From: Eubacteriales bacterium
Lineage (GTDB): Bacteria > Bacillota_A > Clostridia > Christensenellales > Aristaeellaceae
Length of the DNA: 18,936 nt
Direction of reading: 5' to 3'
Assembly (NCBI GenBank): GCA_029974855.1
Contig: JARKQO010000039.1
Span: 1 to 18,936, forward strand
This document shows positions 1 to 18,657 of the stretch, piece after piece. The translations under genes and the position numbers were made by a program. Each line of letters starts with the position of its first letter. The stretch's first letter is position 1. The notes below the pieces were generated by a model that had not been told where the DNA came from, made no database searches, and worked only from the letters and a program-made list of their open reading frames with translations.

Positions 1-353
1 AATTCGCTGGTGGGGTGGCCTCCCTTGCTGAGCCCCCAGCGAACGCGGTAGGCGTCCCCCCGTTCATTCAGCTGGCAGACGCAGATGTTCTCCCGGGGGC
101 ATTGCAACACATGGCGGAAGAACTTGCCGCTGCCGGTGGCGATGAAATATTCCCCCGCCAGGTTTGCCGCACGTACCCCCAGGGGAGTCCACTCTTCCGG
201 GGTCTGGTCGAAAAAGGGGGTGCACTGGCTCACCTGTGCTTCTGTCATGCGGCAGGTGAGGTTGCCGCCGTTGCGCTCGTGCCAGCCTTGGTCCCAGCCG
301 TCCTGGCAGGTGCGGGCAAATTGCCGGATGATCTCAATGTCCGTCATCTCCAT
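1..353 (-). CDS. rhaD: Rhamnulose-1-phosphate aldolase, N-terminal part (left edge cuts it)
   Basis: RhaD is a class II zinc aldolase that splits L-rhamnulose-1-phosphate into DHAP and L-lactaldehyde, the last step of cytoplasmic rhamnose breakdown. I translated this stretch by hand: 117 codons from ATG 353 to the window edge. It matches E. coli RhaD closely: GWHERNGGNLT near residue 22 (phosphate-binding loop), FIATGSGKFFRHV around 70-82, and YRVRWGL followed by PTSE at the edge. The last visible residue, Glu117, has the same number as E. coli Glu117, the catalytic acid/base. The zinc-binding HCH motif lies beyond the window. The start has GGAGG 9 nt upstream, inside the end of rhaA. Only 3 nt separate the rhaA stop from this ATG, so the genes are cotranscribed and probably coupled. 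The identity is firm despite truncation. Full length and stop are unknown. Confidence 0.93.
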   Translation of the reverse strand, partial: MEMTDIEIIRQFARTCQDGWDQGWHERNGGNLTCRMTEAQVSQCTPFFDQTPEEWTPLGVRAANLAGEYFIATGSGKFFRHVLQCPRENICVCQLNERGDAYRVRWGLSKGGHPTSE

Positions 354-356
354 GGC

Positions 357-1592
357 CTATTTCCTCCCCGCCAACACGGCCTTTTCATACTCGCACACCT
401 CTTGAAACCAGTTCTCCCTGGGGGGAACCCCCTGCCGCCGGCAATACTCCTCCCACACCGGGCCAAAGGGCAGCGTTTTGCATTCCTCCTGTAGCATCAG
501 CAACTCCGTAAAGGCCTCGCTTTGCTGCAGCCTCTTGAAATGATCATGGGGCAGAAGCAGCGCGTACAAAAGCGCCTTTTCCATGTTCCGCGTGCCGATC
601 ACCCAGGCCGCCACCCGGTTGATGGACGCGTCAAAGAAATCCAGCCCGATCATCACCTTGTCCAAGGCGTTATTCCGCACGATCTCGCAGGCGATCTCCC
701 TCAACTCGTCCTCCAGGCGCACCACATGGTCGCTGTCCCAGCGGACCGCCCGGGTCACGTGGAGCGGGATTTTGTCAAAGAAGCACAGCAACGCCGGAAT
801 CTTGTCGCTGATGACCTCGGTGGGATGGTAATGGCCGCTGTCCAAAAGCTGATAGACCCCCGGGCGGGTGGCGGCATAGGCGGTGTAAAACTCGCTGCTG
901 CCCACGGTGTAGGCCTCCAGGCCGATGCCGAACACCTTGCTCTCCACACAGTCGATGACGCCCTCCAGCTTCTCCGCGAAGATCCGGTCCAGGGAATCCA
1001 TGAGCAGCATGCGGGGGGACATCCGGTCGGCGGGTACATCCTTTAGCCCGTCGGGAATCCACACATTGCACAGGCAGGGGCTTCCTTGCTCCTTGGCAAA
1101 AAAGGCGGCGATGCGGCGGCAGGCGATGCCGTGGCGCACCCAGAAGTCCCGGATTTCCGGATCAGGATGGGAAAGGGTCAACCCCCAGGCCTTGGGGTGG
1201 GAAAAGAAGGTGGGGTTAAAGTCCATGGCAATGCCGTTCTGTTTCCCCCACCGGGCCCAGGCCTCGAAATGCCGGGGCAGCAGCGTGTCCCGGTCCACCT
1301 TTTCGCCTGTTTCCAGCACCGCGTAGGAGGCGTGCAGGTTCAGGCGCTTCTTCCCGGGGATCAGGCTGCAGGCCTTCTCAAAATCGGCGGTGAGCTCCTG
1401 AAAATTCCGGGCCTTGCCGGGATAGCTTCCCGTGGCTTGAATGCCCCCGGTGAGGGGCCCGGCGTTTTCAAAGCCCGTCACATCGTCTCCCTGCCAGCAG
1501 TGGATGCTGACGGGGATCTCCCCAAGCCGTTTCAGCGCCCCCTCCACATCCACCCCAAAGGCCTCATACCGCTTCTTGGCCTGTTCAAACAT
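357..1592 (-). CDS. rhaA: L-rhamnose isomerase
   Basis: RhaA interconverts L-rhamnose and L-rhamnulose in the cytoplasm using a divalent metal. The 411-residue product is about family length (E. coli about 419) and collinear with it. Visible blocks are SIHCWQGDDVTGFEN near the N-terminus, TGGIQATGSYPGKARN, KRLNLHASY, DFNPTFFSHP, CNVWIPDGLKD, VESKVFGIGLEAYTVGS, SGHYHPTEVISDKI, VRWDSDHVV and IGLDFFDASINRVAAWVIG. These carry the Glu/Asp/His metal ligands of the family. Two starts are possible: ATG 1598, which overlaps the rhaB stop as ATGA, and ATG 1592. AAGGAG sits 7 nt before ATG 1592 but only 1 nt before ATG 1598, so 1592 is preferred. The gene lies between rhaB and rhaD in a tight rhaBAD order. 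A much longer upstream extension of this frame lies inside rhaB and is not coding. Confidence 0.96.
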   Translation of the reverse strand: MFEQAKKRYEAFGVDVEGALKRLGEIPVSIHCWQGDDVTGFENAGPLTGGIQATGSYPGKARNFQELTADFEKACSLIPGKKRLNLHASYAVLETGEKVDRDTLLPRHFEAWARWGKQNGIAMDFNPTFFSHPKAWGLTLSHPDPEIRDFWVRHGIACRRIAAFFAKEQGSPCLCNVWIPDGLKDVPADRMSPRMLLMDSLDRIFAEKLEGVIDCVESKVFGIGLEAYTVGSSEFYTAYAATRPGVYQLLDSGHYHPTEVISDKIPALLCFFDKIPLHVTRAVRWDSDHVVRLEDELREIACEIVRNNALDKVMIGLDFFDASINRVAAWVIGTRNMEKALLYALLLPHDHFKRLQQSEAFTELLMLQEECKTLPFGPVWEEYCRRQGVPPRENWFQEVCEYEKAVLAGRK

Positions 1593-1594
1593 AG

Positions 1595-2995
1595 TCATGC
1601 TCCTTTCGTCCCGGGAAGATAGGTGTCCATGGGAAAGCTGCGGGCAATGGCCCTGCGGGCGGCTTCCCCGTCCGGGAGCTCCCCGGCCGCGATCATCTGG
1701 GCCGCCAGATTTCCCAAAGCGGTTCCCTCGGTGGGGCCCGCGTAGACCGGGATGCCCAGGGCGCTGGCGGTCCACTGGTTCAGCACCCGGTTTTGGCTGC
1801 CTCCCCCTACGATGTTCATGCTGGTATAGGTTTTGCCCGTCAAGCCTTGCAGCCGCTCCGCCGCCTCCCGGTAACACCGGGCCAGAGAATGGTACACGCA
1901 GGCGTACAGCTCCCCGTCGGTCCCAGGAAGGGGCTGCCTCCCCTCCCCCAGGGCCGCTTCGATCTCCCGGATCATGCTCCGGGGAGCCATAAAGCGCGGG
2001 GCATTGGCGTCGAAATAGCCGGCGAAGCCTTCATGGGCCTGGGCCATCTCCGCCATTTCCCCAAAGGAATGACGCTTGCCCTGTTCCTTGCGGATTTGCT
2101 GCAAAATCCACATCCCCATGATATTTTGGAGGTAGCGGTACCTGCCCCCGTAGCCGCCCTCATTGGTAAAGCCTGCCGCCAAAGAGGCCCCGTCCGTCAG
2201 GGGCTGCTCCAGCTCCACCCCCAGCAGGCTCCAGGTGCCGCTGGACAGGTACAGGGCGTTTTCGTCCTTGGCGGGAACCGCCAGAAAGGCACTGCCTGTA
2301 TCGTGGGTGGCGGGCAGCACCACCTTGCACGAATAGCCCGCCTCCCGGGCAATCTCCGGCAGAAAACCCCCCAGGATAGTGCCGGGCATCACCGGCGGGT
2401 TGGCAAACAAGCGGGAGGGCAGGCCCGCCGCTCGCAAAATCTCCGGGGCCCATGTGCGGGTTTTGGCGTCCAGCATGGCCGTGGTGGAGGCGTTGGTGTA
2501 CTCGTTGCATTTCTTCCCTGTCAGAAAGAAGTGAAGGTAATCGGGCATCATCAGAAAGCTTTCCGCCTTTTCTAAGGCCTCCCCGGGCAGGCTCATCAGC
2601 TGGTAGACGGTGTTGAAGGGCTGCTTGGCAATGCCCGCCAGGCTGTAGTGCCTGGCAAAGGGCAGGCGTTCTTCCAGGCGGGCGTCCATGCCTTCGGTGC
2701 GGCGGTCCCGGTAGGCCACCGCGCCGCCGATGATCCGCTCCCCCTGATCCAGCAGCACAAAATCCACGCCCCAGGTATCGATGCCGAAGCTGACGGGGGC
2801 GTAGGGCCTGGCCGCCTTCAGCCCCTGAAGCACATGGTGCTTCAAAGCCTCCACGTCCCAGCAAAGATGGCCGTCCTTCAGGGCGTAATCGTTGTCAAAG
2901 CGGTATAGCTCCATGATCTCCATGTGCCCGTTTTCCAGCGTGCCCAAAATATGCCGCCCGCTGGACGCGCCGATATCGCAGGCCAAATAGCGCAT
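1595..2995 (-). CDS. rhaB: L-rhamnulokinase (FGGY kinase)
   Basis: RhaB phosphorylates L-rhamnulose with ATP to rhamnulose-1-phosphate in the cytoplasm. The 466-residue protein (E. coli 489) has the FGGY-kinase layout. The N-terminal actin-like domain begins with YLACDIGASSGR. IDTWGVDFVLLD follows near residue 73. PATHDTGSAF carries the catalytic Asp expected for RhaB. LSSGTWSLLG and the C-terminal nucleotide motif NIVGGGSQNRVLNQ, then GPTEGTALGN, complete it. GIDTWGVDF and NEYTNASTT are typical of rhamnulokinase within FGGY kinases. ATG 2995 is preceded by GGGAGGG with 6 nt spacing. Upstream is a 91-nt AT-richer gap after the GH112 gene, where an internal promoter is possible. Downstream it abuts rhaA with 2 nt between stop and chosen start. 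The assignment is firm from motifs plus position in rhaBAD. Confidence 0.95.
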   Translation of the reverse strand: MRYLACDIGASSGRHILGTLENGHMEIMELYRFDNDYALKDGHLCWDVEALKHHVLQGLKAARPYAPVSFGIDTWGVDFVLLDQGERIIGGAVAYRDRRTEGMDARLEERLPFARHYSLAGIAKQPFNTVYQLMSLPGEALEKAESFLMMPDYLHFFLTGKKCNEYTNASTTAMLDAKTRTWAPEILRAAGLPSRLFANPPVMPGTILGGFLPEIAREAGYSCKVVLPATHDTGSAFLAVPAKDENALYLSSGTWSLLGVELEQPLTDGASLAAGFTNEGGYGGRYRYLQNIMGMWILQQIRKEQGKRHSFGEMAEMAQAHEGFAGYFDANAPRFMAPRSMIREIEAALGEGRQPLPGTDGELYACVYHSLARCYREAAERLQGLTGKTYTSMNIVGGGSQNRVLNQWTASALGIPVYAGPTEGTALGNLAAQMIAAGELPDGEAARRAIARSFPMDTYLPGTKGA

Positions 2996-3023
2996 GCTTG
3001 ACCCTCCCTTCCGTCTTTATTGT

Positions 3024-3032
3024 ATATTACCA
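3024..3032 (-). promoter_or_regulatory. Possible extended -10 element ahead of rhaB
   Basis: The 91-nt gap between the GH112 stop and rhaB (2996-3086) is much richer in A and T than its flanks. On the minus strand it contains TGGTAATAT, which fits an extended -10 (TGn plus TAATAT, 4 of 6 to TATAAT). No good -35 is present (best TGGCAA, 16 nt upstream, 3 of 6). It could give separate expression of rhaBAD. It could equally be ordinary AT-rich spacer. A small ACAGC/GCTGT hairpin with an 11-nt loop also lies here, without a convincing U-run. Confidence 0.25.
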
Positions 3033-3086
3033 TAAAATGACAGCTTTGCCATCAGGCTGTTCTTATTGTCCATCCAATGCAAAACG

Positions 3087-5264
3087 TCAATCCGGCTCCT
3101 CTATCCCCTGCTCCAAATCCAGCACCCGCATCTCATAGGGCGCCAGGGACGCGGCATAGCGCCTGCCCTGCCACAGGCAGGCGGTGTCCTGATGGGCAGC
3201 GCTGTTGTTCACCAGCGCCAGCTTGCCCAGGGCGGGATACAGAGCGCACTCCGTATGAAGGTTTTGGGTCACGGGCCCGGCCTCCTCCAACCCGCAGGCA
3301 TGGAGCAGCAGATTTTGCAGCAGCCGGCTGTGGGCCATATCGTAGCGGAAGCCCGACAGATACACGCCCTTCCCCTTGCCAAAGGGGTGCAGCGTGACAG
3401 CCGGATAACGTTCCCCTTCCAAAGTTACGGCGGCTAGCACCTGGGCTGTGCCGTCGGTGAGAATCACGTTCCGCCTTCCCGCCAGGACAATGCCCCCGGG
3501 AATCAGCCCGGCTTCGTCCTTTGCCTCAAAGGTCCACCGGCCATGGCAGTCCCGCTCCCCACCGTCCAGGTCCACCCCCAGCACATGGGCCATCCGCAGG
3601 CAGGTGGCGTTGCCCCGGCTGGCTCCCGGCTCCCCGATGCCCAGCAGCACGCCGCCCCGGTGCACCCAGGCGGTGAGGGCATCCACCACCCGAACATCCT
3701 GCCACAGGCTGCCTCCGCTCCACGCGCCGCCGCCCTCTCCCGCGTTCACCAGCACATCGATCTCCCCGGGGACTCCCTCCCGCACATCCTCAAAGGAGAG
3801 GAAGCGCACCTCAAAGGGCAGCCCGGCCAGGCTTTCCAGCACATGGATCAGCACATGCCCGCAGGTTTCATGAAAATGCCCGCTCAGGGTCCAGGTGCGC
3901 AGGGAGCCCCAGGCGGTGAGGACGCCCACGACGGGCTTTTCACAGCGGGGCGCGCTCCCCTCATGAAGGCCGCGAATCTCCCGGAACTCCCTCACAATGC
4001 GATCCATGGCCTCCATAAAGTCCGGGTACTCCCGCACCAGATGCAAATAGCCCCCCAGCCCGGCCCTCTCCACCTTTTGGCGCAGCAAAGCCCGGCGGAC
4101 GCCGACCCAGTATTCCAGGGCGTCCTTGCCGGGGCGGCCCCCAGGGGCAAAGGTGGGCGCTCCCCCCAGCCCCACCGGGAATAGGTAGGGGTGAAGGCGG
4201 ATTTCATGGACCGGGGCGGGCACCCCGGCGCAAAGGCGGACCTCATACCCGGAAAACACGCACTTGATGATCCCGTCAAAGGCAAACTCCTCAAAGCGCC
4301 CGTTATAGGGCTCCAGCCCCACCCAGCTATCGTCGTAGAACACATAGGCCCGCTTCCCAAAGGAATGGACGATTTGCACCAGCTCCCGGCCCAGCTCCCG
4401 CACAAACCCGCCGATAAAGGCCATCCAGTCCCGCTGCCGCGGGCCGGGCACCCGATGGGTGGCGTTGTGCTTGCCCTGGCGCACAAAGTCCTCGGCGGTG
4501 AGGGCATAGCCATGCTGCCGGGCAAAGTCCTCCAGGGCCTCCGGGGAGACGGTGAAATCATAGCTGCCCCAATCGGTAAACAGGTGCCGGTTTTCCGGAT
4601 GAGCGCCCCAAATCCACGCGAAATTGTAAAACAGGGAGGTGAAGCGCACCACAGTTGTGTCCGGCCTGGCCCGGCACCAGTCCGCCATCCAGGTTTTCAG
4701 GTAGGCCCGGGCCTCGGGCCGGTAGGGGTTCAGTTGCATCAGGGGCTCCTTGTCCCACCCGTTGGTGACGTGGTTGTACATGGAAATTTCTTCCCAAATC
4801 CGCCAGGCCAGAAAGCTCACCGTATACTGCCGCCAGGGGGTGGCCTGGATGTCCACCGTGCCCGCCGACGGGTTCCAGCGCCAGCGCTCCTGAGGGAGCT
4901 CCCGGTTCTCGGTACGGTCGTACACCTGCCAGTAGGCCATGGCTTCGGGCGAATCGTTCACCTGAAACTGCCGGGAAAAGAAGCCCTCCAGCGGCGCTAC
5001 CCTGAGCTCCGTTCCCTCCGCCACCAAAAGGGGCGTGCTTAAAAAGGTCTGCTGCCGGGTGTTTGGATGCTCCCGTATCCAGCCGTTATGCTCCCGGATG
5101 GGGCAAAGGGTGGAGTAGACCCCGTACCCGGCGTGCAGCAGCTCCTGGGAAAGCCAGGTGCCGTCGCTGTCCCGTAGCACATCCGCCCCCCAGCGCCGGG
5201 CCAGCTCCAAGGTCAGCTTTTCATGGCCGGCTTCCCCCGGCAAGGTAAAACAGCCCCGTTCCAT
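3087..5264 (-). CDS. GH112 phosphorylase, probably D-galactosyl-1,4-L-rhamnose phosphorylase
   Basis: GH112 enzymes split beta-galactosides at the non-reducing end with phosphate, giving alpha-galactose-1-phosphate plus GalNAc/GlcNAc or L-rhamnose. The 725-residue protein (family about 720-750) begins GCFTLPGEAG and has RWGADVLRDSDG, the family's WGADAIRxSDG. It continues with YTVSFLAWRIWEEISMYNH near 147-165, RFTSLFYNFAWIWG at 207-220, YVFYDDSWVGLEP near 307-319, RRALLR, GGYLHL, LINVLE-like C-terminal blocks and GKGVYLSG. Asp312 aligns with Asp313, the general acid of bifidobacterial GLNBP. No signal peptide is visible, so it is cytoplasmic. Position between a GH105 gene and rhaBAD favours rhamnose over HexNAc specificity; this is inference. 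ATG 5264 is chosen because AGGTGG sits 5 nt upstream; ATG 5267 and GTG 5273 are alternatives. Ten nt separate it from the GH105 stop. Confidence 0.88.
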   Translation of the reverse strand: MERGCFTLPGEAGHEKLTLELARRWGADVLRDSDGTWLSQELLHAGYGVYSTLCPIREHNGWIREHPNTRQQTFLSTPLLVAEGTELRVAPLEGFFSRQFQVNDSPEAMAYWQVYDRTENRELPQERWRWNPSAGTVDIQATPWRQYTVSFLAWRIWEEISMYNHVTNGWDKEPLMQLNPYRPEARAYLKTWMADWCRARPDTTVVRFTSLFYNFAWIWGAHPENRHLFTDWGSYDFTVSPEALEDFARQHGYALTAEDFVRQGKHNATHRVPGPRQRDWMAFIGGFVRELGRELVQIVHSFGKRAYVFYDDSWVGLEPYNGRFEEFAFDGIIKCVFSGYEVRLCAGVPAPVHEIRLHPYLFPVGLGGAPTFAPGGRPGKDALEYWVGVRRALLRQKVERAGLGGYLHLVREYPDFMEAMDRIVREFREIRGLHEGSAPRCEKPVVGVLTAWGSLRTWTLSGHFHETCGHVLIHVLESLAGLPFEVRFLSFEDVREGVPGEIDVLVNAGEGGGAWSGGSLWQDVRVVDALTAWVHRGGVLLGIGEPGASRGNATCLRMAHVLGVDLDGGERDCHGRWTFEAKDEAGLIPGGIVLAGRRNVILTDGTAQVLAAVTLEGERYPAVTLHPFGKGKGVYLSGFRYDMAHSRLLQNLLLHACGLEEAGPVTQNLHTECALYPALGKLALVNNSAAHQDTACLWQGRRYAASLAPYEMRVLDLEQGIEEPD

Positions 5265-5274
5265 CATTCCCACC

Positions 5275-6300
5275 TCACGCGCTCTGCAGTACGGCCACCA
5301 GGAACGCCAGTCCCAGTCCCTGCCCCCAGCCCTGGGTCCATTTTCTCGAAATATTGCGGTAGCCGTCCAGGTCCCGCATCACGGCGGTGCCCCCGGAAAC
5401 GTTCAGCAGCCGCCCGTCCTCAGAGATGTTTTCCAGCACACCCCCATAGGCCCTTTGCATATAGGGAGTGTGCAAGGGGTTGCCCGATGCCAACATCGCC
5501 GCCGCGATGCCGCAGCTGGCGGACAGCTCCTCATAGGAGTCCGGGTCATCTAGCACCGTGCGCCACAGGCCCTTTTCCGTCTGCAGCCCTTTCAGGGCCG
5601 CCAGCTGCTCCCGCAAGGAAGCGTCTACGTCCATATACTGCGGGTACAAATAGGGCTCAGGCAGCGCGCGCTTTACCTGGCTCATGGTGTAGGCGGCCCA
5701 GGCATTGGCCCTGGCCCAGAAAAAGCCGGACATATGATCCTTTTGGATATGGCTGTAGCCATGGTACCAGAGCCCGGTGGCCCTATCCTGCAGAAATTCG
5801 ATATGCCAGAAATACTGGTTCAGGGCGTCGTCGATGACGGCCTGATCCTCCAGCTTCACGCCCATGCGCAGCATGAAAAACGCCGCCATGAACAGGGTGT
5901 CCGCCCAGGCCTGCTCCGGAAAGTCATTGTTCACGGACACCGTATGCTGCAGCACCTGCTCCCCAAAGCGCAGGGCGCGGCCCCGCAGGTACTCCAGCTT
6001 GAAAAGAGCCGCCTGCCAGTAGGCTTCCTCCCCGGTTTCCTCGTACAGGGTGATGAGGCAATGGCCCATGGCGCAGGCGTTCACCGTCCACTCCGGCAGG
6101 CCCAGCCCCATCAGCTCGTCCACCCGCCCCCGAAGCAAAGCCAGGTACTCCCCGTTGCCGGTGGCCCGCCAGGCCTCCGCCACGCCGTAGTACGCCACGC
6201 CGCAGGGCCAGTCCCAAATCATGTCCATTTGCATGGTTTTGCGCACCATGCGGTCTATCCTGTCCAGAACCTCCCGCTTTTCAAACCCCAGCCGAATCAT
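5275..6300 (-). CDS. GH105/GH88-type unsaturated rhamnogalacturonyl hydrolase (YteR-like)
   Basis: Enzymes of this family remove the 4,5-unsaturated galacturonate left at the non-reducing end of rhamnogalacturonan-I fragments by lyases, working by vinyl ether hydration in the cytoplasm. The 341-residue protein is near YteR length (373) and has no signal peptide. Its (alpha/alpha)6-barrel motifs are IWDWPCGVAYYGVAEAW at 28-44, a NNDFPEQAWADTLFMAAFFM block in which Asp134 corresponds to the catalytic Asp of YteR, WYHGYSH at 178-184, FWARANAW at 194-201 (family WxRGNGW) and a C-terminal WTQGWGQGLGLAFL. ATG 6300 is preferred over the upstream in-frame extension because GGAGG lies 7 nt upstream and homologous sequence starts near here. 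It follows the binding-protein gene by 91 nt containing a strong hairpin and runs directly into GH112. GH88 unsaturated glucuronyl hydrolase is the alternative; context favours GH105. Confidence 0.87.
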   Translation of the reverse strand: MIRLGFEKREVLDRIDRMVRKTMQMDMIWDWPCGVAYYGVAEAWRATGNGEYLALLRGRVDELMGLGLPEWTVNACAMGHCLITLYEETGEEAYWQAALFKLEYLRGRALRFGEQVLQHTVSVNNDFPEQAWADTLFMAAFFMLRMGVKLEDQAVIDDALNQYFWHIEFLQDRATGLWYHGYSHIQKDHMSGFFWARANAWAAYTMSQVKRALPEPYLYPQYMDVDASLREQLAALKGLQTEKGLWRTVLDDPDSYEELSASCGIAAAMLASGNPLHTPYMQRAYGGVLENISEDGRLLNVSGGTAVMRDLDGYRNISRKWTQGWGQGLGLAFLVAVLQSA

Positions 6301-6320
6301 CGCTTTCCCTCCGTTTGGGA

Positions 6321-6356
6321 GAAAGGAGCCCCCCTCTTGCGGGGAGGGCTCCTTTC
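6321..6356 (-). other. Strong intercistronic RNA hairpin after the binding-protein gene
   Basis: Positions 6321-6336 and 6341-6356 form a 16-bp inverted repeat with a 4-nt loop, one mismatch and one G-T pair. On the transcribed minus strand no run of T follows, so it does not look like a Rho-independent terminator that would cut off the downstream enzymes. It is better explained as a 3' stabiliser or processing barrier for the binding-protein mRNA, or at most a partial terminator. This is inference from structure and position; RNA ends would decide. Confidence 0.65.
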
Positions 6357-6391
6357 CCTTGCCAGTCAACCCTTTGACAGGAAACGCTCCC

Positions 6392-8032
6392 TTACTTGGG
6401 CAGCTTGGTGGTATGGCCCGCCTCGTAGGCCTCCAAGCGCTCGTCCATGATCTCCTGGTAGCCGGCCTCCAGATACTTCTGGCTCAGCTCCCCGTAGAGG
6501 GCGTCGAACCCGGCGGGATCGGCCTTCACCAGCAAGGCGAAGTACTCCTGGTACAGGCTCAGCAAGGTGGCGGTGTACTCGCTCTCACTTTCGATGGCTA
6601 CGGCGAACACCGGGTCGGAGTAGGAGCGCCCGTCGTCGGCAATGGCCTTCAGCTTGTGATAGTTCTCCATCATCTGCTCCGTGAAGCTCTGGGGCAGCCC
6701 CTGGGGCGAAATCAGGCGGATGGTGTCCTCGATGGTGCCGGTTTTCTTGGCGGCGTGCACCAGGCAGGCCATGTCGATGTTCATGTTGTGGTTCAGCATC
6801 TCCTCGCCCCGGTAGTCCGCGTTCACAGCGGGGATGCCGTCCTCGCCCATGGTGTAGGTCACGCCCTCCACGCCGTTCTCCAGCACGAAGAGCACGTCCG
6901 GCTGAAGCATCCACTCCATCAGCATCCAGGCGGCCTTCAGCTGATCCTGGGTGGCGGTGGAAGCGAAGCCCACGATCATGCCGAAGGGGTTGTTGGCGCG
7001 GGTCTGCTGGGGGATGCCCTCTTCCGCCAGGCTGTACACGTTTTCAATGGCCAGCTCAGCGCCCGGGTTCTGCTCGAAGAAGGACACCAGCCAGTCCACA
7101 TTGGGGGACATATAGCCGCCATAGCGGTACAGCTTGCCGTTGATGAAGTCGGTCTTCATCTGGTCGGCCCCCGCGCCCTTGGAATCCTTCTCCAGCTCAA
7201 ACTCCTTGGAGATGAAACCGGCGTTGTATTCCCCATTGTAGCGCTTCAGGAAACGGTAGGTGGGCTCCCAGCCGATGGAAGCGGTGCCCAAAGAGGAATG
7301 CACGGCCCACTGCTTCTCGTCCGGCGGGAAATCCCTGAACTGGAAGTTAGCCACGTAGGCTGTGGCGGGGATGCCCAGGCCCAGGGGCGTTTCCGCCAAA
7401 CCGGCTTCCACGATCTTGGTCAAGGCGTCCACCTGCTCGGCGTAGGTGGCGGGAGGTGCCTCATACCCTACCTGGCGCAGCCAGTCCATCCGCACAAAGG
7501 TGGCGTAGGTATAGTCGGTCTTATAGTAGGGCCGCTCGCTGAGGACGAAGAAGGTTTGGCCGTTGATGTCGGTGTAGCCCAACTGGCTGTTGTCCACCAT
7601 GGACTGGTAATAGGTGGGGGCCGCCGCCTTGAAGGCCTCCAGGTCGATGACCTGCATCGCCCCTTCGCTGGCCCACTGGGCCACCTTGGGGTAGTCGTAC
7701 TCCATCATGATGGTGGGGGTTTCCCCACCGGCGATGAGGAGGCTGTACTTGGTCATCACATCGTTGCGGGGGATGGCCACATACTTCACGTCGATGTTCC
7801 ATTTGTCGCCGAATTCCTTCTGGATCCACCGGGTCCAGTAGTTGTCGTCCACGGCGGGGTAGCCCTCCTTGGAACGGTCGTACACGGGAACGGTGATGGT
7901 TACGCGCTCCGCAAAGGGCGCCCAGTCCGCGGGAAGGGTCGGGTTCACCGTGGGCGCCTCGGTGGCGAGGGCGGGAACCAGGCCCATGCACAGCACCAGG
8001 GTCACTGCCAGGGAAATCAACTTTTTCAGCAT
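6392..8032 (-). CDS. Extracellular sugar-binding protein of an LplA/YtcQ-type ABC importer
   Basis: This is the substrate-capture subunit of the ABC importer encoded just upstream. The 546-residue precursor is of the large type found with LplB/LplC permeases. MLKKLISLAVTLVLCMGLVPALA forms a signal peptide with a likely cut after ALA (residue 23). The only Cys (15) is preceded by Leu, so it lacks a proper lipobox. The mature part has a type-I solute-binding-protein layout, with WTRWIQKEFGDKWNIDVKY near the N-terminus, then IAGGETPTIM, RMDWLRQVGYE and a C-terminal hinge segment around NNPFGMIVGFAS. ATG 8032 has AGGAGG 8 nt upstream and puts the signal peptide at the N-terminus; a longer in-frame extension upstream is not used. 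It is third in the operon, after both permeases and before GH105/GH112, suggesting a rhamnogalacturonan oligosaccharide ligand (inference). Confidence 0.9.
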   Translation of the reverse strand: MLKKLISLAVTLVLCMGLVPALATEAPTVNPTLPADWAPFAERVTITVPVYDRSKEGYPAVDDNYWTRWIQKEFGDKWNIDVKYVAIPRNDVMTKYSLLIAGGETPTIMMEYDYPKVAQWASEGAMQVIDLEAFKAAAPTYYQSMVDNSQLGYTDINGQTFFVLSERPYYKTDYTYATFVRMDWLRQVGYEAPPATYAEQVDALTKIVEAGLAETPLGLGIPATAYVANFQFRDFPPDEKQWAVHSSLGTASIGWEPTYRFLKRYNGEYNAGFISKEFELEKDSKGAGADQMKTDFINGKLYRYGGYMSPNVDWLVSFFEQNPGAELAIENVYSLAEEGIPQQTRANNPFGMIVGFASTATQDQLKAAWMLMEWMLQPDVLFVLENGVEGVTYTMGEDGIPAVNADYRGEEMLNHNMNIDMACLVHAAKKTGTIEDTIRLISPQGLPQSFTEQMMENYHKLKAIADDGRSYSDPVFAVAIESESEYTATLLSLYQEYFALLVKADPAGFDALYGELSQKYLEAGYQEIMDERLEAYEAGHTTKLPK

Positions 8033-8074
8033 CCTCGTTTCCTCCTTTTTGTGGGGTAGCTCTTGATACGCACA

Positions 8075-8119
8075 TGGATGGCGGTCCATCCACATCTATG
8101 GCAACGGGAATGGCCCGTT
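8075..8119 (-). other. Two small hairpins between permease and binding-protein genes
   Basis: The 86-nt gap before the binding-protein gene holds two inverted repeats. One is TGGATGG/CCATCCA (8075-8081 with 8086-8092, 4-nt loop, extendable by wobble pairs). The other is AACGGG/CCCGTT (8103-8108 with 8114-8119, 5-nt loop), which reaches the permease stop codon. Neither is followed by a T-run. With the large hairpin at 6321-6356 they bracket the binding-protein gene. Such bracketing often accompanies higher mRNA levels for a binding protein than for its permeases. The functional role is inferred. Confidence 0.45.
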
Positions 8120-9027
8120 TAGCCCTTCACGGCGCCGATCATCACGCCTTTCACAAAGTACTTCTGCACGAAGGGGTACACCATCAAAATGGGAATGGTG
8201 GCGAACATGATGGCGGCGGCCTGGAGCACCTCCGGCGTACTGGTGACCGCCGCGGACTCCGACAGGCTCACCGCGTCGGTGCCGGAGCTCAGCACCATGT
8301 TGGACAGCAGGTATTGCAGCGGCTGCAAGGCCTTGGTGGTGATGTAGTATTTGGCGTCGGCATATGCGTTCCAGCGGCCCACCGCGTAATACAGGGACAG
8401 GGTCGCCAGGATGGGCTTTGCCAAGGGCAGCACGATGTTCCACAACACCTGAAAATGGGTGGCCCCGTCCAGCTCCGCAGCCTCGTAGAGGCTGTCGGGG
8501 ATGGTGGCCTGCAAAAAGCTTTTCATGATCAGAAAGTTATAGGGGGAAAAGCACAGGGGCAGCACCAGCACCCACATGGTGTTGGTGAGCTTCAAATTTT
8601 TCAGCAGCAGATATTCGGGAATCAGCCCAGCGCTGAAATACAGGGTGAACATGATGATGAGGGAGAAGAAGCCCCGGCCCTTCAGGCCCTTCCGGGACAG
8701 GGGGTAGGCCGCGCAGATGGTGATGACCATGCCGATGGCGGTGAACAGCACCGTCACCAGCACCGTATACCCCAGGGAATGGGTCAGCTGCCCGTCCCTG
8801 AAGATGGAGTGGTACGCGTGCACGTTCGCCCCCTTGGGCCACAAGTAGACCTCCTTGGCCATCACCGCCGTGTTGGAGGACACGCTCTTTGCCATGACGT
8901 GGATGAAGGGCAAAATACAGGTAAGGGACAGCAGCAAAATCACAAAGGCGATCAGGAAGTCGGAAACCCGTATGCGGTTTACGCCGTGGAAAGCGCGGGT
9001 TTTCCCGGGCTTTGGCGACGTGAGCAT
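8119..9027 (-). CDS. ABC sugar transporter permease, LplC/YtcP type
   Basis: This is the second membrane subunit of a carbohydrate ABC importer. The 302-residue protein has six hydrophobic stretches, beginning with FLIAFVILLLSLTCILPF near residue 24, then TVLVTVLFTAIGMVITIC and FFSLIIMFTLYFSAGLI. A cytoplasmic coupling loop, EAAELDGATHFQVLWNIVLP, is the EAA motif that docks to the ATPase. The last membrane span lies near IMFATIPILMVYPFV, followed by the typical YFVKGVMIGAVKG end. ATG 9027 has AGGAGG 8 nt upstream. An ATG at 9034 is in another frame. The gene follows the first permease by 18 nt and precedes the binding protein by 86 nt. Its closest known context analogue is YtcP of Bacillus subtilis, in the rhamnogalacturonan cluster. 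The sugar cannot be read from the permease itself. Confidence 0.94.
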   Translation of the reverse strand: MLTSPKPGKTRAFHGVNRIRVSDFLIAFVILLLSLTCILPFIHVMAKSVSSNTAVMAKEVYLWPKGANVHAYHSIFRDGQLTHSLGYTVLVTVLFTAIGMVITICAAYPLSRKGLKGRGFFSLIIMFTLYFSAGLIPEYLLLKNLKLTNTMWVLVLPLCFSPYNFLIMKSFLQATIPDSLYEAAELDGATHFQVLWNIVLPLAKPILATLSLYYAVGRWNAYADAKYYITTKALQPLQYLLSNMVLSSGTDAVSLSESAAVTSTPEVLQAAAIMFATIPILMVYPFVQKYFVKGVMIGAVKG

Positions 9028-9045
9028 GGGGCATGCCTCCTTTCG

Positions 9046-10002
9046 TTACAGCAATCCGTCCTCGCCCAGCCTTTTAGCCGCCCGGTCCGCGGCCAGCACC
9101 AACAAGACCCCCACAACGGACTGGAACAGGCCCACCGTGGTGGCGCGGCTGAAGTTGCCCCCTGCCAGCCCCTTTTCGTAGATGTAGATGGCCAGCTGGT
9201 ACTGAAAATCCTTCACCTGGACATTGCCCAAAGCGTCCAGGCGCTCGAAGTTGGAACCCATCAGACGGCCCAGGTTCATGATCAGCAAGGTGACCATGGT
9301 GGGACGGATGCCCGGCAGGGTCACGTGCCAGATGCGGCGCAGCCGGTTCGCCCCGTCGATGGTGGCGGCCTCATACAGCTGAATGTCGATGCCGGTGATG
9401 GCTGCCAAATACAGGATGGAGCCCCAGCCCATGTTCTGCCATACGCCAATCAGCAGATAGGTGACAGCCCAGTTCCACTTTTCCGACAGGAAGGGGATGC
9501 CCCGGTGAATCACGCCCATGTTTTTCAGCATGATGTTGATGAGCCCGGTTTCCGGCTTGAACAGGTTCAGGGCCACGCTGGCGATGATAACCCAGGACAG
9601 GAAATGAGGCAGGTACAGGATGGTTTGGGAGACCCTCTTGAAGCGGTGAAACCGAAGCTCGTTGAGCATAATCGCCAGGAGCACCGGGATGGGGAAGCCC
9701 ACCAGCAAATCCAGGGCGTTAAAAATCAGCGAATTTTTCAGCGCCCGGTGAAAATCCCGGTCCCCCAAAATCTTCTCGAAGATTTCAAGGCCCACCCACT
9801 CGCTGCCCGCGTAGCCCCTGGCAGGCTTGTAGTTCATGAACGCCATGCGCAGGCCCGGATAGGCCGCGTACTTGAAGATGATCACAAAGGCGATGGGTAG
9901 GGCCAGCAGCAGGTACAAGCGCCAGTTCCGCGCGGCATGCTTGCGCGCCGAAGCCCAGAACCGGAGGGCTGAGGCACTGAACTGCCGGGTCTTGATTTCC
10001 AT
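9046..10002 (-). CDS. ABC sugar transporter permease, LplB/YteP type
   Basis: First membrane subunit of the importer and first gene of the minus-strand catabolic operon. The 318-residue protein has a positively charged start, then six membrane spans: around WRLYLLLALPIAFVIIF, LDLLVGFPIPVLLAIML, ILYLPHFLSWVIIASVAL, AVTYLLIGVWQNMGWGS, the segment after the EAA loop, and SVVGVLLVLAADRAA at the end. The EAA loop reads EAATIDGANRLRRIWHVTLP. FMNYKPARGYAGSEWVGLENF-like spacing after the first span is typical of LplB/YteP proteins. ATG 10002 is chosen because AGGAGG lies 6 nt upstream. An upstream in-frame GTG at 10074 would add 24 residues but has no ribosome binding site. The leader from the predicted TATAAT at 10099-10104 to the start is about 90 nt. 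No ATP-binding subunit is encoded in the window. Confidence 0.93.
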   Translation of the reverse strand: MEIKTRQFSASALRFWASARKHAARNWRLYLLLALPIAFVIIFKYAAYPGLRMAFMNYKPARGYAGSEWVGLEIFEKILGDRDFHRALKNSLIFNALDLLVGFPIPVLLAIMLNELRFHRFKRVSQTILYLPHFLSWVIIASVALNLFKPETGLINIMLKNMGVIHRGIPFLSEKWNWAVTYLLIGVWQNMGWGSILYLAAITGIDIQLYEAATIDGANRLRRIWHVTLPGIRPTMVTLLIMNLGRLMGSNFERLDALGNVQVKDFQYQLAIYIYEKGLAGGNFSRATTVGLFQSVVGVLLVLAADRAAKRLGEDGLL

Positions 10003-10098
10003 TCTCGTCCTCCTGGGTGAAACCTCCCGCGCCATCGCAGGGGATTCGTTGGCAAAGCGTTGTGGTTTTTTCACATTTTCTCTTGTTACTTCATGTAC

Positions 10099-10104
10099 AT
10101 TATA
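10099..10104 (-). promoter_or_regulatory. -10 box for the transporter/rhamnose operon
   Basis: The minus strand has a perfect TATAAT here, about 97 nt before ATG 10002. No recognisable -35 occurs at 16-18 nt upstream (the sequence there is A-rich). A consensus -10 without a -35 is what an activator-dependent promoter often looks like, and the divergent AraC-type gene is the obvious candidate activator. The sequence shows the box; the regulation is inferred. Confidence 0.5.
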
Positions 10105-10257
10105 GGCAAATCAAGATTCCCATTTCTATTCTTTTTCAATTGCAAACTGCCCACTTTCGATCATTCATCACGCAAAATGGGCGCTGGTGACAGCGGCCCC
10201 TATTTCGGACGTCTGATCAAGACATCATAGAACGCCTTTCATTTTTCGCGCCTTGCC

Positions 10258-10286
10258 TTGTGCTCTGGGTTTCCTTCTGCTATACT
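10258..10286 (+). promoter_or_regulatory. Sigma70/sigmaA-like promoter for the AraC regulator and rhaM
   Basis: TTGTGC at 10258-10263 and TATACT at 10281-10286 are separated by exactly 17 nt. The -10 matches consensus at 5 of 6 positions; the -35 only at 3 of 6, but including the key TTG. The predicted transcript would begin near 10293, leaving a short leader before the TTG start at 10319. No other credible promoter precedes the gene. Confidence 0.5.
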
Positions 10287-10318
10287 ATGGCACAGAAGCC
10301 TCTGGGTGGTGATTGTTT

Positions 10319-11314
10319 TTGAGAAAATCCAACCGCACCATTGTGGAATACCGGGTGTACGACCTGCCCCTGGAACTGCCCCTGATGCTGCTGCACGGGG
10401 ACCAATGGCGCATCTCCGATGAGCTCAGCGGCCGCCTCCACTTTCACAACTGCCTGGAGATCGGCTTTTGCCGCACGGACAGCGGGGTGCTGCAATTTGA
10501 GGAGGAAACCATTCCCTTCCGCGCCGGGGACGTCACCGTCATTCCCCGCCATATCCCCCACACCACCTGCTCCCAAAAGGGGACCCGCAGCCAGTGGTCC
10601 TACCTGTTTATGGACCTCACCGCCTTGCTCAGCGGCGAGCTGCCCTACAAAAGCCCGTCTGAGGACAGGCTGCGGGACATCACCCCCAGGGCCTTCCTGT
10701 TCAGCCGGGCCCAGCACCCCCGCATCCACTTTCTGGCAAACTGCCTATTGGAGGAATGCGTAGCCCAGCGGAAGGACTGGGTGACGGTGATGAAAAGCTA
10801 CGCCCTGGCCCTCCATTACGAACTGCTGCGCATGGTGGAGGACCAGGAGCGCCAACGCCTTCCCCAGGATGTGAAATCCTTCGTGCTGCGCCCCGTGCTG
10901 GAGCACATCCGCTCCCACTATATGGAGCCCACCTCCGTAAAAGCCCTGGCGCACATCTGCCACATCAGCGAAACCCATTTCCGGCGCTTATTCCTGTCCA
11001 TCATGGGCACCTCTCCCCTGAGCTTTGTGAACGCCACCCGGATCAGCCAGGCCTGCGTGCTGCTGAACACCACGCAGCTTTCCATTCTCGCCATTGCCGA
11101 GGCGGTGGGCATCCCCTCCCTGTCCAGCTTCAACCGCAATTTCCAGCAGGTGATGGGGGTGAGCCCCCGGCAGGACCGCAACGCCCCCTCCCCGCTGAGC
11201 CATACCCCCAGGCAAAAATACGTCCTGACCTACAAGGGCTGGCTGGCCGCCGAGGACCGGCCCGCCCACGTTTCCTCCGCCCAGCCGGAGGCGGCGGCGC
11301 AGCCGTCCCCCTAA
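10319..11314 (+). CDS. AraC-family transcriptional regulator
   Basis: Probable sugar-responsive activator of the divergent transporter/rhamnose operon. The 331-residue protein has an N-terminal cupin sensor (about 25-95) with LHFHNCLEIGF, FRAGDVTVIPRHIPH and SYLFMDL. A helical linker follows. The C-terminal AraC DNA-binding domain (about 190-285) has two helix-turn-helices: SVKALAHICHISETHFRRLF, then SILAIAEAVGIPSLSSFNRNF with the usual VMGVSPRQ end. A Pro/Ala-rich tail of about 45 residues beyond that is unusual. The start must be non-ATG: an in-frame TGA at 10310-10312 closes the frame upstream and the first ATG (10382) would remove part of the sensor. TTG 10319 is favoured over TTG 10313, as GGTGG lies 9 nt before it. 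The effector is unknown; position suggests rhamnose or an imported oligosaccharide. Confidence 0.9.
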   Translation: MRKSNRTIVEYRVYDLPLELPLMLLHGDQWRISDELSGRLHFHNCLEIGFCRTDSGVLQFEEETIPFRAGDVTVIPRHIPHTTCSQKGTRSQWSYLFMDLTALLSGELPYKSPSEDRLRDITPRAFLFSRAQHPRIHFLANCLLEECVAQRKDWVTVMKSYALALHYELLRMVEDQERQRLPQDVKSFVLRPVLEHIRSHYMEPTSVKALAHICHISETHFRRLFLSIMGTSPLSFVNATRISQACVLLNTTQLSILAIAEAVGIPSLSSFNRNFQQVMGVSPRQDRNAPSPLSHTPRQKYVLTYKGWLAAEDRPAHVSSAQPEAAAQPSP

Positions 11315-11343
11315 GGGGAATAACAAGCATAGGAGGCATGTCC

Positions 11344-11661
11344 ATGGAACGGGTTGCATGGAAGGGTAAAATCAAGCCCGGGCAAAAGGCGGAATACATC
11401 CGCCGCCACGACGGGATATGGCCGGAAATGGCGCGGGTGTTAAAGGACGCGGGCATCCGCAACTACACCATATTTGCCAATGGCGACGAGCTGTTTGGCT
11501 ATTATGAATGCGAAAAAGGCCTTGCCTACGCCCAGCGGGCCCAGGCGGCCAGCCCCGTGGTGGACCGCTGGAACGCCTATATGAAGGATGTGCTGGAGCT
11601 GGAAATGGACCCGGAAACCGGAGCCCAGCCCGCCCTGGAGGCCGTGTTCAGGCTGGACTGA
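11344..11661 (+). CDS. rhaM: L-rhamnose mutarotase
   Basis: RhaM interconverts the alpha and beta anomers of L-rhamnose in the cytoplasm, supplying the form used by rhamnose isomerase. The 105-residue protein is the family size (E. coli 104) and collinear with it. KPGQKAEYIRRHDGIWPEM contains Tyr18 and His22, at the same numbers as the catalytic Tyr18 and His22 of E. coli RhaM. NYTIFANGDELFGYYE and RWNAYMKDVLE follow, then the LEAVFRLD end. AGGAGG at 11331-11336 is 7 nt from ATG 11344 but only 1 nt from ATG 11338, so 11344 is chosen, and the residue numbering agrees. It follows the regulator by 29 nt and is likely cotranscribed with it, on the opposite strand from rhaBAD. It faces purL, 34 nt away, tail to tail. 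Confidence 0.94.
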   Translation: MERVAWKGKIKPGQKAEYIRRHDGIWPEMARVLKDAGIRNYTIFANGDELFGYYECEKGLAYAQRAQAASPVVDRWNAYMKDVLELEMDPETGAQPALEAVFRLD

Positions 11662-11680
11662 AAAGCGCCGCTCCCGCGCT
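11661..11680 (-). terminator. Weak candidate terminator behind purL
   Basis: The 34-nt gap between the convergent rhaM and purL ends contains AGCGC/GCGCT (11664-11668 with 11676-11680, 7-nt loop). On the minus strand the hairpin is followed by TTTT, as in a minimal Rho-independent terminator for the purine operon. The stem is only 5 bp and the T-run only four bases, one of which is in the stem, so efficiency is doubtful. On the plus strand no T-run follows, so it does not serve rhaM. Confidence 0.35.
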
Positions 11681-11695
11681 GTTCCCATGGAAAAA

Positions 11696-14600
11696 CTAGC
11701 TGAAATAGGCCACGCCCCCCTCAAAGAGGGGCTGGAATGTATTGCCTTGGACGTTCTTGTACAAATCCTTTCCCGCCCGCTCGCTGTGGCCCATCTTGCC
11801 CAAAATATGGCCGTCCGGGCTGGTGATGGCCTCGATGGCCAAAGCGGAGCCGTTGGGGTTATACAGCGGGTCCATGGTGGGGTTCCCCTGGCCGTCCACG
11901 TACTGGGCGGCGATCTGCCCCCCGGTGATGAGGCGCTCCAGCACCTCTTGGGATGCCACGAAGCGGCCTTCCCCGTGAGAGATGGCGATGGTATGCTGTT
12001 GGCCCAAGGTACAGCGCTGGAGCCAAGGGCTCAGGGTGGAGGAAATCCGGGTGGTGACCAGCATGCTCTGGTGCCGCCCCAGGGTGTTAAAGGTGAGGGT
12101 GGGCCAGTCCGCCTGAGCCGGGGCGATCTCCCCAAAGGGCAGAAGCCCCAGCTTCACCAAGGCCTGAAAGCCGTTGCAGATGCCCAAAACCAGCCCGTCC
12201 CGGTGCCGCAGCAGCTCCCGGACCCCCTCCTCCATGGCGGGGTTGCGGAAGAAGGCGGCGATGAGCTTGGCGGAGCCGTCGGGCTCATCTCCCCCGGAGA
12301 AGCCGCCGGGGAACACGATCATCTGGCTTTGGGCCAACAGCTTTCGCGCCTCTTGGAGGCTCTGGGCGATATCCGAGGGGGTCTGGTTGCGGATCAGCAG
12401 AATCCGGGGCCGGGCCCCGGCCCGCTCCAGGGCCCTGGCGGTGTCGGTTTCGCAGTTGGTGCCGGGGAAGGCGGGGATCAAGGCCATGGGCCGGGCCTTG
12501 CGGCAGGCGGGCCTGGGGCGCTGCGCGGCCCCCTGGCCCGCAAAGCGGAGGACAGGTATTTGCGGACTCTGGGCCTCGCCAGGAGTCCGGTAGGGGAATA
12601 CGGAGGCCAGCTTGTTTTCGTACCGCTCCTGGAGAGGCCACAGAGGAATCCGCTGCCCGGCCACTACCAGCCCATAGCTGTCAATGGTTCTCCCCAGGGT
12701 TATCCCCAGGGTTATCCCCAGGGCCTCTCCGCCTCCCGCGTCCTCCCAGCCCGGGGCCATTTCCAGAACCAGGCCGCCGAAATGGTGGGCGAACAGATCC
12801 CCCTCATAGGAGATTTCCACGCCGATGCGATTGCCCATAGCCATGTTCAGCAAAGCCTCCGCCAATCCCCCCAGCCCCAGGGCCCAGGCGGAAAGGATTT
12901 TCTGCTCCCCTATCAGCCGGTAGGCCAGAGCCCAGCTGTCTTTCAGGGCCCGGGAATCGTGGGGGTTCACCGCCAGCAGCCGCAGGGCATGGCCGGGCCC
13001 CTTAAACTCCGGGGAGATCACCCGGCTGGCCTGGCCGGGGGCCACGGCGAAGCTGACCAAGGTGGGGGGCACCGTGAGGGCTTCAAAGGTGCCGCTCATG
13101 CTGTCCTTGCCGCCGATGGCCGCCACGCCGAAGTCCAGCTGCGCGTCCAAAGCGCCCAGCAAAGCCGCCAGAGGCTTGCCCCAGGTATCGGGATCGCCGG
13201 TCATCCGCTCAAAGTACTCCTGAAGGGTCAAATAGGCTCCGGCGGTCTCAAAGCCCGTGGCGGCCAGCTTTGCCAGGCTTTCCACCACCGCCAGGTAGGC
13301 CCCCTCGTAGGGGTCCAGGCTGCTGAGATGGGGGTGGAAGCCGTAGCTCATGCCGCTGACGGTGTCCGTCTCTCCCCCCGGTACCGGCAGCTTTGCCACC
13401 ATGCACTGGATGGGGGTAAGCTGATACTTTCCCCCCAAAGGCATCAGCACCGTTCCCCCGCCGATGGTGCTGTCAAAGCGGCCGGTGAGGCCCTTTTGCC
13501 CGCAGATATTCAGGTGGAAGGCCATGGCCTCCAGCCGGGAGGGCAGATCGGGCTGAGCCAGCCAGGGCAACAGAGAATCCTCGTGGTTGAAAGGGGTGGC
13601 ACCCTTGATCACCGCCTCCGCCTTCCGCTTCGCCCCGTTGCTGCTGACAAACTCCCGGGACAAATCCACCAGCGTCCGCCCCCGCCAGCGCATCACCAGG
13701 CGGGGCTGCTCCATCACCCAGGCCACGGGGGTGGCCTCCAGGTTCTCCCCCTGGGCCAGAGCGATAAACGCCTCCACATCCTGGGGGGCCACCACCACGG
13801 CCATGCGCTCCTGGCTCTCGGAGATGGCCAGCTCCGTGCCGTCCAGGCCCTCGTATTTCTTGGGCACCCGGTCCAAATCAATGATCAGGCCGTCGGCCAG
13901 CTCGCCGATGGCCACGCTGACGCCCCCGGCGCCGAAATCGTTGCAGCGCTTGATGAGCCTTGTGACCCGGCCATCCCGGAACAGGCGCTGGATCTTCCGC
14001 TCCACCACCGGGTTGCCCTTTTGCACCTGGGCCCCGCAGCTAAGGGCGCTGTCCTGGCTATGGCTCTTGCTGCTGCCGGTGGCCCCGCCGCAGCCGTCCC
14101 GGCCCGTGCGGCCCCCCAGCAAGATCACCGCGTCCCCGGGGGTCGGCTCCTCCCGGCGCACATGGGCCGCCGGGGCCGCCCCCAGCACCGCCCCCAGCTC
14201 CAGGCGCTTGGCGGCGTAGCCCGGATGGTAGATTTCCTTCACCAGCCCCGTAGCCAGGCCCACCTGGTTGCCATAGGCGCTGTACCCGGCTGCGGCGGTG
14301 GTGGTGAGCTTGCGCTGGGGCAGCTTGCCGGGCAAGGTGTTCCGCAAATCCCCGGTGGGGTCCGCGGCCCCGGTGATCCGCATGGCCTGGTACACATAGG
14401 CCCGGCCCGACAGCGGGTCCCGGATGGCTCCCCCCAGGCAGGTGGCCGCGCCGCCAAAGGGCTCAATCTCCGTGGGGTGGTTGTGGGTCTCGTTCTTGAA
14501 CATCAGCAGCCAGGGCTCGGTTTTGCCGTCCACGTCCACGTCGATCCGGATGGAGCAGGCGTTGATCTCCTGGCTCTCGTCCAGATTTTTCAGCAGCCCC

Positions 14601-15439: not shown

Positions 15440-15449
15440 GCTGTTCCTC

Positions 15450-16730: not shown

Positions 16731-16750
16731 AAGCGTTTCCTTCTCCCCCG

Positions 16751-17923: not shown

Positions 17924-18657
17924 GGCCGGCCCTCCTTTGGGGGATGGTCCCCCAGCTTGTTGAAGATACGGGTTTCGGTCCGGCCTGTGGCAAGGTCCAC
18001 AGCCCGCACAAAGAGGCTGACCTTGTTTTCCCGGTTCAGGCTGTCCCACAGTCCCTGGGCCAGGGCATCCAAATCCGGCTCCAAGGACACCGCCGCCGGC
18101 TCCCCCGCAAAGCTGGGCAGGGGGTTCCCGTCCCCCCGGTAGGTGTGGATCAAATGCCCCTGGCCCGCCACGGGCTGGGGATAGTGGAAAAAGAAGCGCT
18201 GAACGCTCTCCCCCTTGCCCCCTTCGGATTTGAGGATGGAGAGGGCATAGCGCATCTCCCCTTTTTCCACGTGCATCAGCCCCGATATCCGGGGGGTGAA
18301 GTGGGGCGCGTCCGGCTCGAAGGTGCGGTCTTCCAGGGCCTGCTGAAAGCTACCGCCTTTTGCCAGTGCCGAAAAAATGGTGTCCGTCTGGTCCCCGTTG
18401 GTGACGATGGTATCGCTCCCCACCACCCGCACCGGGGCGTAGAGGATGAGGCTGGGGTCCTGTACCAAGGCCGGGTCGAAGGCCCTGGCCTCGATGCCCC
18501 CGTCCTTTTCCACAAACACCCGATTGCGGCTGTTGCCGCTGCGGCCCATGATGAAATAAGCCATCACCGCCCGGTTTTCCCCGCTTCGCCCCAGCAAAAT
18601 ACCCCGTCCGGGGTAGGGGTTGGCTCCCAGCGCCTCCCGCACATCCGTGTTTCTCAC
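17920..18657 (-). CDS. purO: IMP cyclohydrolase, PurO type
   Basis: It closes the ring of FAICAR to give IMP, completing what bifunctional PurH does elsewhere. The 245-residue protein belongs to the PurO-like family (IMP_cyclohyd), first known from archaea. Conserved blocks are NPYPGRGILLGRS at 13-25, AYFIMGRSGNSRNRVFV at 33-49, SDTIVTNGDQTDTIFSAL at 81-98, EPDAPHFTPRISGLM and a C-terminal RTETRIFNKLGDH. The start is GTG 18657: it overlaps the purN stop as GTGA, and AGGGAGG lies about 8 nt upstream. A longer in-frame start at 18720 would run through purN and is not used. The direct neighbour is the stand-alone AICAR transformylase, overlapping by 4 nt, so the two halves of PurH activity are made side by side. 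The gene symbol follows archaeal usage. Confidence 0.92.
   Translation of the reverse strand: MRNTDVREALGANPYPGRGILLGRSGENRAVMAYFIMGRSGNSRNRVFVEKDGGIEARAFDPALVQDPSLILYAPVRVVGSDTIVTNGDQTDTIFSALAKGGSFQQALEDRTFEPDAPHFTPRISGLMHVEKGEMRYALSILKSEGGKGESVQRFFFHYPQPVAGQGHLIHTYRGDGNPLPSFAGEPAAVSLEPDLDALAQGLWDSLNRENKVSLFVRAVDLATGRTETRIFNKLGDHPPKEGRP

Follow-up and report, generated by a model that had tools for sequence, protein, structure and literature searches.

The window analyzed here is a stretch of 18,936 nt (positions 1 to 18,936 of the forward strand of contig JARKQO010000039.1, assembly GCA_029974855.1) from a Eubacteriales bacterium of the family Aristaeellaceae. A compact locus of ten genes occupies its positions 1–11661 and encodes two permeases and the binding protein of an ATP-binding cassette (ABC) transporter, two enzymes of the families GH105 and GH112, proteins of L-rhamnose catabolism and a regulator of the AraC family. 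With regard to its substrate, we consider it very probable that this predicted operon serves the use of galactosylated fragments of rhamnogalacturonan I (RG-I). The features of the locus are as follows:

1–353, minus strand: rhaD, rhamnulose-1-phosphate aldolase; cut by the window edge, first 116 amino acids (aa) present, ATG start at 353; NF002963 6.6e-29, TIGR02624 3.1e-28
357–1598, minus strand: rhaA, L-rhamnose isomerase; PF06134 625 bits, TIGR01748 614 bits, over the cut-off of 585
1595–2995, minus strand: rhaB, rhamnulokinase; TIGR02627 488 bits, under the cut-off of 528; FGGY_N and FGGY_C
3087–5267, minus strand: GH112, predicted β-1,4-galactosyl-L-rhamnose phosphorylase; PF09508 1.6e-168, PF17385, PF17386
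5275–6300, minus strand: GH105, predicted unsaturated rhamnogalacturonyl hydrolase; PF07470 7.7e-76, ATG start at 6300
6310–6360, minus strand: strong GC-rich stem-loop separating the genes for the binding protein and GH105; z −3.4, one of 200 shuffles folds equally well
6392–8032, minus strand: extracellular solute-binding protein (SBP) of the ABC transporter; PF01547 4.4e-11, start set by eye
8119–9027, minus strand: LplC-type ABC permease; PF00528 2.8e-15
9046–10074, minus strand: LplB-type ABC permease; PF00528 7.5e-15
10313–11314, plus strand: AraC-family regulator; PF00165 and PF12833, with the cupin models PF12852 and PF02311 under their cut-offs
11344–11661, plus strand: rhaM, L-rhamnose mutarotase, 3′ of the regulator; PF05336 2.3e-24

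The minus-strand genes follow each other in the transcript order lplB-lplC-SBP-GH105-GH112-rhaB-rhaA-rhaD, and the AraC gene, followed by rhaM, is divergently oriented on the plus strand. The start codon of rhaA overlaps the stop codon of rhaB by four bases and the stop of the GH105 gene lies at most 10 bases from the GH112 start. An earlier note on this DNA had placed all of these genes together, and each of them was recovered within 1–11661 by open reading frame (ORF) listing combined with Pfam and NCBI profile searches. The window contains 63 ORFs of at least 90 aa, many of them antisense, of which 18 were profiled against Pfam. Among these 18 we found no further catabolic gene in the locus and no polysaccharide lyase, in agreement with the note, and also no ABC ATPase. 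Judged by eye, the SBP carries a signal-like N-terminus and the starts of GH105 and GH112 do not look signal-like.

The GH112 protein contains all three domains of the family (PF09508, PF17385 and PF17386). At least 120 homologs were listed (the best 120 of 3655 matches), the closest other protein being 69% identical; on eight of these 120 the JGI name, truncated in two cases, reads β-D-galactosyl-(1→4)-L-rhamnose phosphorylase. Fourteen stretches matched a pattern in viral contigs and none of them encodes GH112. We aligned 113 proteins from 121 loci; eight (six window-type, two of the type acting on N-acetylhexosamine (HexNAc) disaccharides, i.e. the lacto-N-biose type) were lost because simple ORF calling missed a frame longer than 600 aa. 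Two sets of 20 loci each were hand-picked from the listed matches, and one member of the first set (L112) is window-type. Of the aligned proteins 96 are window-type and group in a single clade (support 0.97), apart from 17 HexNAc-type proteins, and identity to the window protein amounts to 47–65% inside the clade versus 31–37% for the HexNAc type. A comparable gap was observed in the G133 family: GH112 occurs in 151 of the 308 genomes analyzed, and the full-length matches listed split into 47–66% and 33–36% identity.

We then compared residues at 26 chosen positions of the Bifidobacterium longum lacto-N-biose phosphorylase (BlLNBP). R32, N166, R210, D313 (which we take to be the catalytic aspartate) and E319 are invariant in all 113 proteins. 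At seven positions (162, 163, 214, 336, 338, 342 and 363), some of which presumably line the acceptor site, no residue is shared between the 96 window-type and the 17 HexNAc-type proteins. From HexNAc-type to window-type, for instance, position 162 changes from V or T to I, 336 from S to C or A, 338 from G to F and 342 from T or S to E. The HexNAc-type proteins retain F214, S336, G338 and F363 in 17 of 17 cases and V162 and T342 in 16 of 17 each; none of these lacto-N-biose-type residues occurs in the window protein, which has I, L, C, F, E and L at V162, F214, S336, G338, T342 and F363, respectively. From its clade and its gene company, the window protein is predicted to be a Gal-β-1,4-Rha phosphorylase.

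This gene company was surveyed within ∼11.5 kb of GH112 in the best 80 of 566 confirmed loci of a genome collection. The GH105 subfamily of the window was found near GH112 in 64 of these 80 loci, an AraC regulator in 42, SBP in 32, LplC in 32, LplB in 31, a GDSL esterase in 30, rhaM in 12, rhaA and rhaD in three each and rhaB in two; since contig edges cut several loci, these counts are lower bounds. With 21 further window-type loci included, the window GH105 subfamily neighbors GH112 at 69 of 101 loci of this type, compared with none of 19 HexNAc-type loci (Fisher 8e-9, a value that overstates the contrast since the loci are related and not independent). Ten neighboring proteins from six HexNAc-type loci comprised one GH95, one APH-type kinase and eight others that were a binding protein, unrelated or unknown. 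The closest relative, genome G202, shows the order LplC-SBP-GH105-GH112-GDSL in a locus (L123) cut by a contig edge, with identities to the window proteins of 91 (over 135 aa), 74, 76 and 65% for LplC, SBP, GH105 and GH112, respectively. Its best rhaB-rhaA-rhaD set is found on another contig, so that the window holds at one place what G202 has at two. Rhamnose genes lie beside GH105 and GH112 in a manner similar to the window in three loci (L033, L034 and L056); in two others (L138 and L139) rhaA, rhaB and rhaD lie near GH112, yet the GH105 is of another kind. The GDSL-type esterase that often accompanies GH105 and GH112 is ∼600 aa long (e.g. L037, 7868–9826); it could perhaps deacetylate RG-I fragments, and none was seen among the scanned window proteins.

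The GH105 subfamily of the window (E-values of 1e-60 or better) was detected in 34 of the 308 family genomes, with identities of 63–76%. In 24 of these 34 genomes GH112 adjoins GH105 directly, with a gap below 400 bases; it lies within 3.1 kb in one, on another contig in seven, and was not found in two. The converse does not hold, as the 151 genomes with GH112 compare with only 34 that carry this GH105 subfamily. We examined the nine active-site positions of YteR given in PMC4528949 in 67 members of the subfamily: H132, W141, D143, M147, H189, W211 and W217 are kept in all 67, and in all 67 the remaining two are changed, Y41 to W and D88 to N. At K133, which is named in a figure legend, T or C is present. 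Trp and Asn are described for YesR and RhiN at the same two positions (Tyr40 in the numbering of that paper, and Asp88) in PMC4528949. An initial reading of the Asp88 to Asn exchange as a sign of lost activity was therefore dropped. A match to the β-galactosidase BglB model NF051900 (215 bits) was far under its cut-off of 420 and was not used. In other genomes of the family a second GH105 subfamily, nearer to this model (396–402 bits), lies beside window-type GH112 (L131, 12843–14018; L132, 7059–8099).

One of the surveyed loci (L040) belongs to Paenibacillus amylolyticus 27C64, which connects the window GH105 with published expression data. This genome yields six PF07470 matches. The GH105 adjoining GH112 has a mass of 39.2 kDa from its first ATG, the same as Pamy_5356; two others (42.2 and 42.1 kDa) match Pamy_1066 and Pamy_4272, and the remaining three (40.6, 88.5 and 44.6 kDa) do not fit Pamy_5356. 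In addition, a 38.4-kDa protein adjoins the second GH105, the one with the mass of Pamy_4272, and fits the methylesterase Pamy_4273 in the table of the paper. By mass and position, the GH105 beside GH112 is likely to be Pamy_5356 and a likely ortholog of the window GH105. According to two publications, Pamy_5356 is strongly upregulated on RG-I in quantitative reverse-transcription PCR and assigned as an unsaturated rhamnogalacturonyl hydrolase (PMC6339884), responds to RG-I only and is inactive on homogalacturonan digests (PMC7267202); GH112 is mentioned in neither main text. Subfamily, residues and the RG-I-induced likely ortholog together lead us to predict that the window GH105 is an unsaturated rhamnogalacturonyl hydrolase as well.

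In the pathway that we propose, the SBP and the two permeases would import small unsaturated RG-I fragments, presumably energized by an ATPase encoded elsewhere. GH105, taken to be cytoplasmic, would remove the unsaturated galacturonate from rhamnose, as suggested by its subfamily, its residues and the likely ortholog. GH112 would then split Gal-β-1,4-Rha with phosphate into α-Gal-1-P and L-rhamnose, a reaction to which its clade and gene company point. By the established pathway, whose genes are present in the window, RhaM, RhaA, RhaB and RhaD would convert rhamnose to dihydroxyacetone phosphate and lactaldehyde. The signal of the divergent AraC regulator, with rhaM 3′ of it, is probably rhamnose or a product related to it, although this is a guess. 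The core of the scheme put forward in the earlier note, i.e. import of RG-I fragments, trimming by GH105, cleavage of Gal-Rha by GH112 and drainage of rhamnose, is thus upheld by the GH112 clade, by the GH105 company (69 of 101 versus 0 of 19 loci) and by the RG-I-induced likely ortholog.

Several observations weigh against this assignment. The window GH112 passes the NCBI equivalog model for HexNAc phosphorylases, TIGR02336 (578.1 versus a cut-off of 560.3 bits), and of its best 120 homologs among 3655 eight carry the NCBI HexNAc-phosphorylase name and one is called a galactosyl-rhamnose phosphorylase. On a link of the window-type clade to the assayed enzymes Cphy_1920 and Oter_1377 only automatic names bear, and these disagree. 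Residues of the two GH112 types fail to overlap in 73 of 554 alignment columns, compared with seven of the 26 chosen positions; the residue separation therefore chiefly reflects an ancient divergence or clade distance and is no more than a hint that the acceptor site has changed. With respect to gene company, the contrast for any rhamnose gene is weak (20 of 101 window-type versus 0 of 19 HexNAc-type loci, P = 0.04), rhaA lies within ∼11.5 kb in just three of the 80 loci, and 48 of the 80 lack a related SBP in the vicinity of GH112, partly owing to contig edges. Finally, GalT, the classical Leloir uridylyltransferase, was found in only 11 of the 34 relatives with the window GH105, the same 11 by two models, all of them under the cut-off of TIGR01239 although over that of PF02744. 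It was not found in 23, including the nearest relative G202. RhaA, for comparison, was found in 23 of the 34.

The TIGR02336 match and the HexNAc names would fit a lacto-N-biose/galacto-N-biose phosphorylase in a locus for host mucin or milk glycans to which the rhamnose genes are merely adjacent. We regard this as most improbable: the window protein falls outside the group of the 17 HexNAc-type proteins, with no more than 31–37% identity to them, it is accompanied by GH105 and rhamnose genes, and neither an APH-type kinase nor a GH95 was seen among the scanned window proteins, whereas the HexNAc-type loci L108 and L106 have one each. TIGR02336 fails to tell the GH112 types apart, since the window protein, a member of the galactosyl-rhamnose-type clade, passes it. 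Public names of galactosyl-rhamnose-type GH112 may often be wrong for the same reason. A different substrate could also be supposed for GH105, namely a uronide-rhamnose or uronide-galactose unit of some other glycan such as arabinogalactan or a polysaccharide of bacterial origin, with GH112 acting on a Gal-linked rhamnoside of that glycan. GH105 indeed spans several uronides (the structure 4ce7, for instance, belongs to an unsaturated 3S-rhamnoglycuronyl hydrolase) and one related locus, L127, contains a GH115 gene. This explanation is nevertheless improbable given that the likely P. amylolyticus ortholog is upregulated on RG-I only, according to PMC7267202, and that GDSL esterases, which possibly deacetylate RG-I, occur in 30 of the 80 loci.

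With galactosylated RG-I fragments as the favored substrate, the two enzymes need not act in sequence. GH105 could act on plain unsaturated GalA-Rha and GH112 on Gal-Rha released by other enzymes, which leaves pathway and substrate unchanged and is compatible with the favored assignment. The many family genomes that carry window-type GH112 without the window GH105 (any GH112 in 151 and this GH105 in 34 of 308) speak for such parallel action, and the direct adjacency of both genes in 24 of 34 genomes speaks against it; on balance we find it somewhat unlikely. Another reading joins two features: the GH105 subfamily would be specialized in removing unsaturated GalA from a rhamnose that already carries galactose, i.e. 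a branched +1 acceptor, and in relatives without GalT an alternative to the classical Leloir uridylyltransferase would drain the Gal-1-P made by GH112. No assignment of this specificity to GH105 was found in the literature searched, and we consider the combination unlikely. Concerning Gal-1-P, a sample of 100 family genomes yielded PurL in 80, and incompleteness alone is therefore not expected to hide GalT in 23 genomes. The earlier proposal that phosphorolysis saves one ATP on the galactose half presumes Leloir entry of Gal-1-P and did not gain support: with GalT in 11 of 34 relatives the saving is a guess. Scavenging of fragments released by other organisms is likewise a guess, since 16 of the 34 relatives carry a PF18370 (PL11-type) RG-I-lyase domain, the one lyase family searched.

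As for the remaining features, the stem-loop at 6310–6360 (minus strand) might raise the expression of the SBP over that of the downstream enzymes, which is a guess. A terminator scan of the region gave four sites versus 6.0 expected, i.e. no excess. A promoter-like site 5′ of lplB on the minus strand is weak, with three sites in the region versus 1.9 expected. An Rfam scan of the window returned nothing at gathering scores and ARAGORN found no tRNA in it. From ∼11.7 kb on, 3′ of rhaM, purine biosynthesis genes follow, which form a unit separate from the pectin-fragment locus. These include, at 16751–18720 (minus strand), a PF01808 AICARFT/IMPCHase-type protein (profile positions 75–311) and a separate PF07826 IMP cyclohydrolase-like protein, which we take to resemble archaeal PurO. 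The closest PurL among the matches listed is 87% identical and stems from a metagenome-assembled genome of ‘Candidatus Limiplasma’, the next being 70% identical; in the sample of 100 genomes, drawn from the family to which one related locus belongs, full-length PurL matches reach at most 65%.

From this one locus a clear prediction can be drawn of how the galactosylated RG-I core is used by a Clostridia-type bacterium. The tight pairing of GH105 with GH112, together with the deep split within GH112, would allow the two GH112 specificities to be distinguished, unlike the NCBI model, which passes the window protein as a HexNAc phosphorylase. Should GalT really be absent, one could test experimentally what becomes of Gal-1-P. 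Galactosyl-rhamnose phosphorylases with a proposed role in RG-I breakdown have already been published, and Lachnoclostridium phytofermentans possesses three GH112 proteins, as stated in a review (PMC8950772). The window GH112 resembles the D-galactosyl-β-1,4-L-rhamnose phosphorylases Cphy_1920 of L. phytofermentans and Oter_1377 of Opitutus terrae, as covered there, in its family, its predicted reaction and its predicted RG-I role; it differs in lying in one gene run with a transporter, GH105 and rhaBAD. With the B. longum lacto-N-biose/galacto-N-biose phosphorylase (PDB 2zus/3wfz) it shares the three GH112 domains as well as D313, R32, N166, R210 and E319, but it is only about one third identical to that group, differs at seven of the 26 chosen positions and has other gene neighbors. 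The window GH105 subfamily is like YesR and RhiN in having Trp and Asn in place of the YteR Tyr and Asp88 (PMC4528949). Unlike Pamy_5356 and GH105 of the YesR/RhiN type, the window GH105 stands in one run with transporter and rhamnose genes; for the window GH105 and for Pamy_5356 alike, RG-I fragments are a predicted substrate. The predicted operon is a compact, well-assembled representative of a pathway type that is already known, and not a new pathway.

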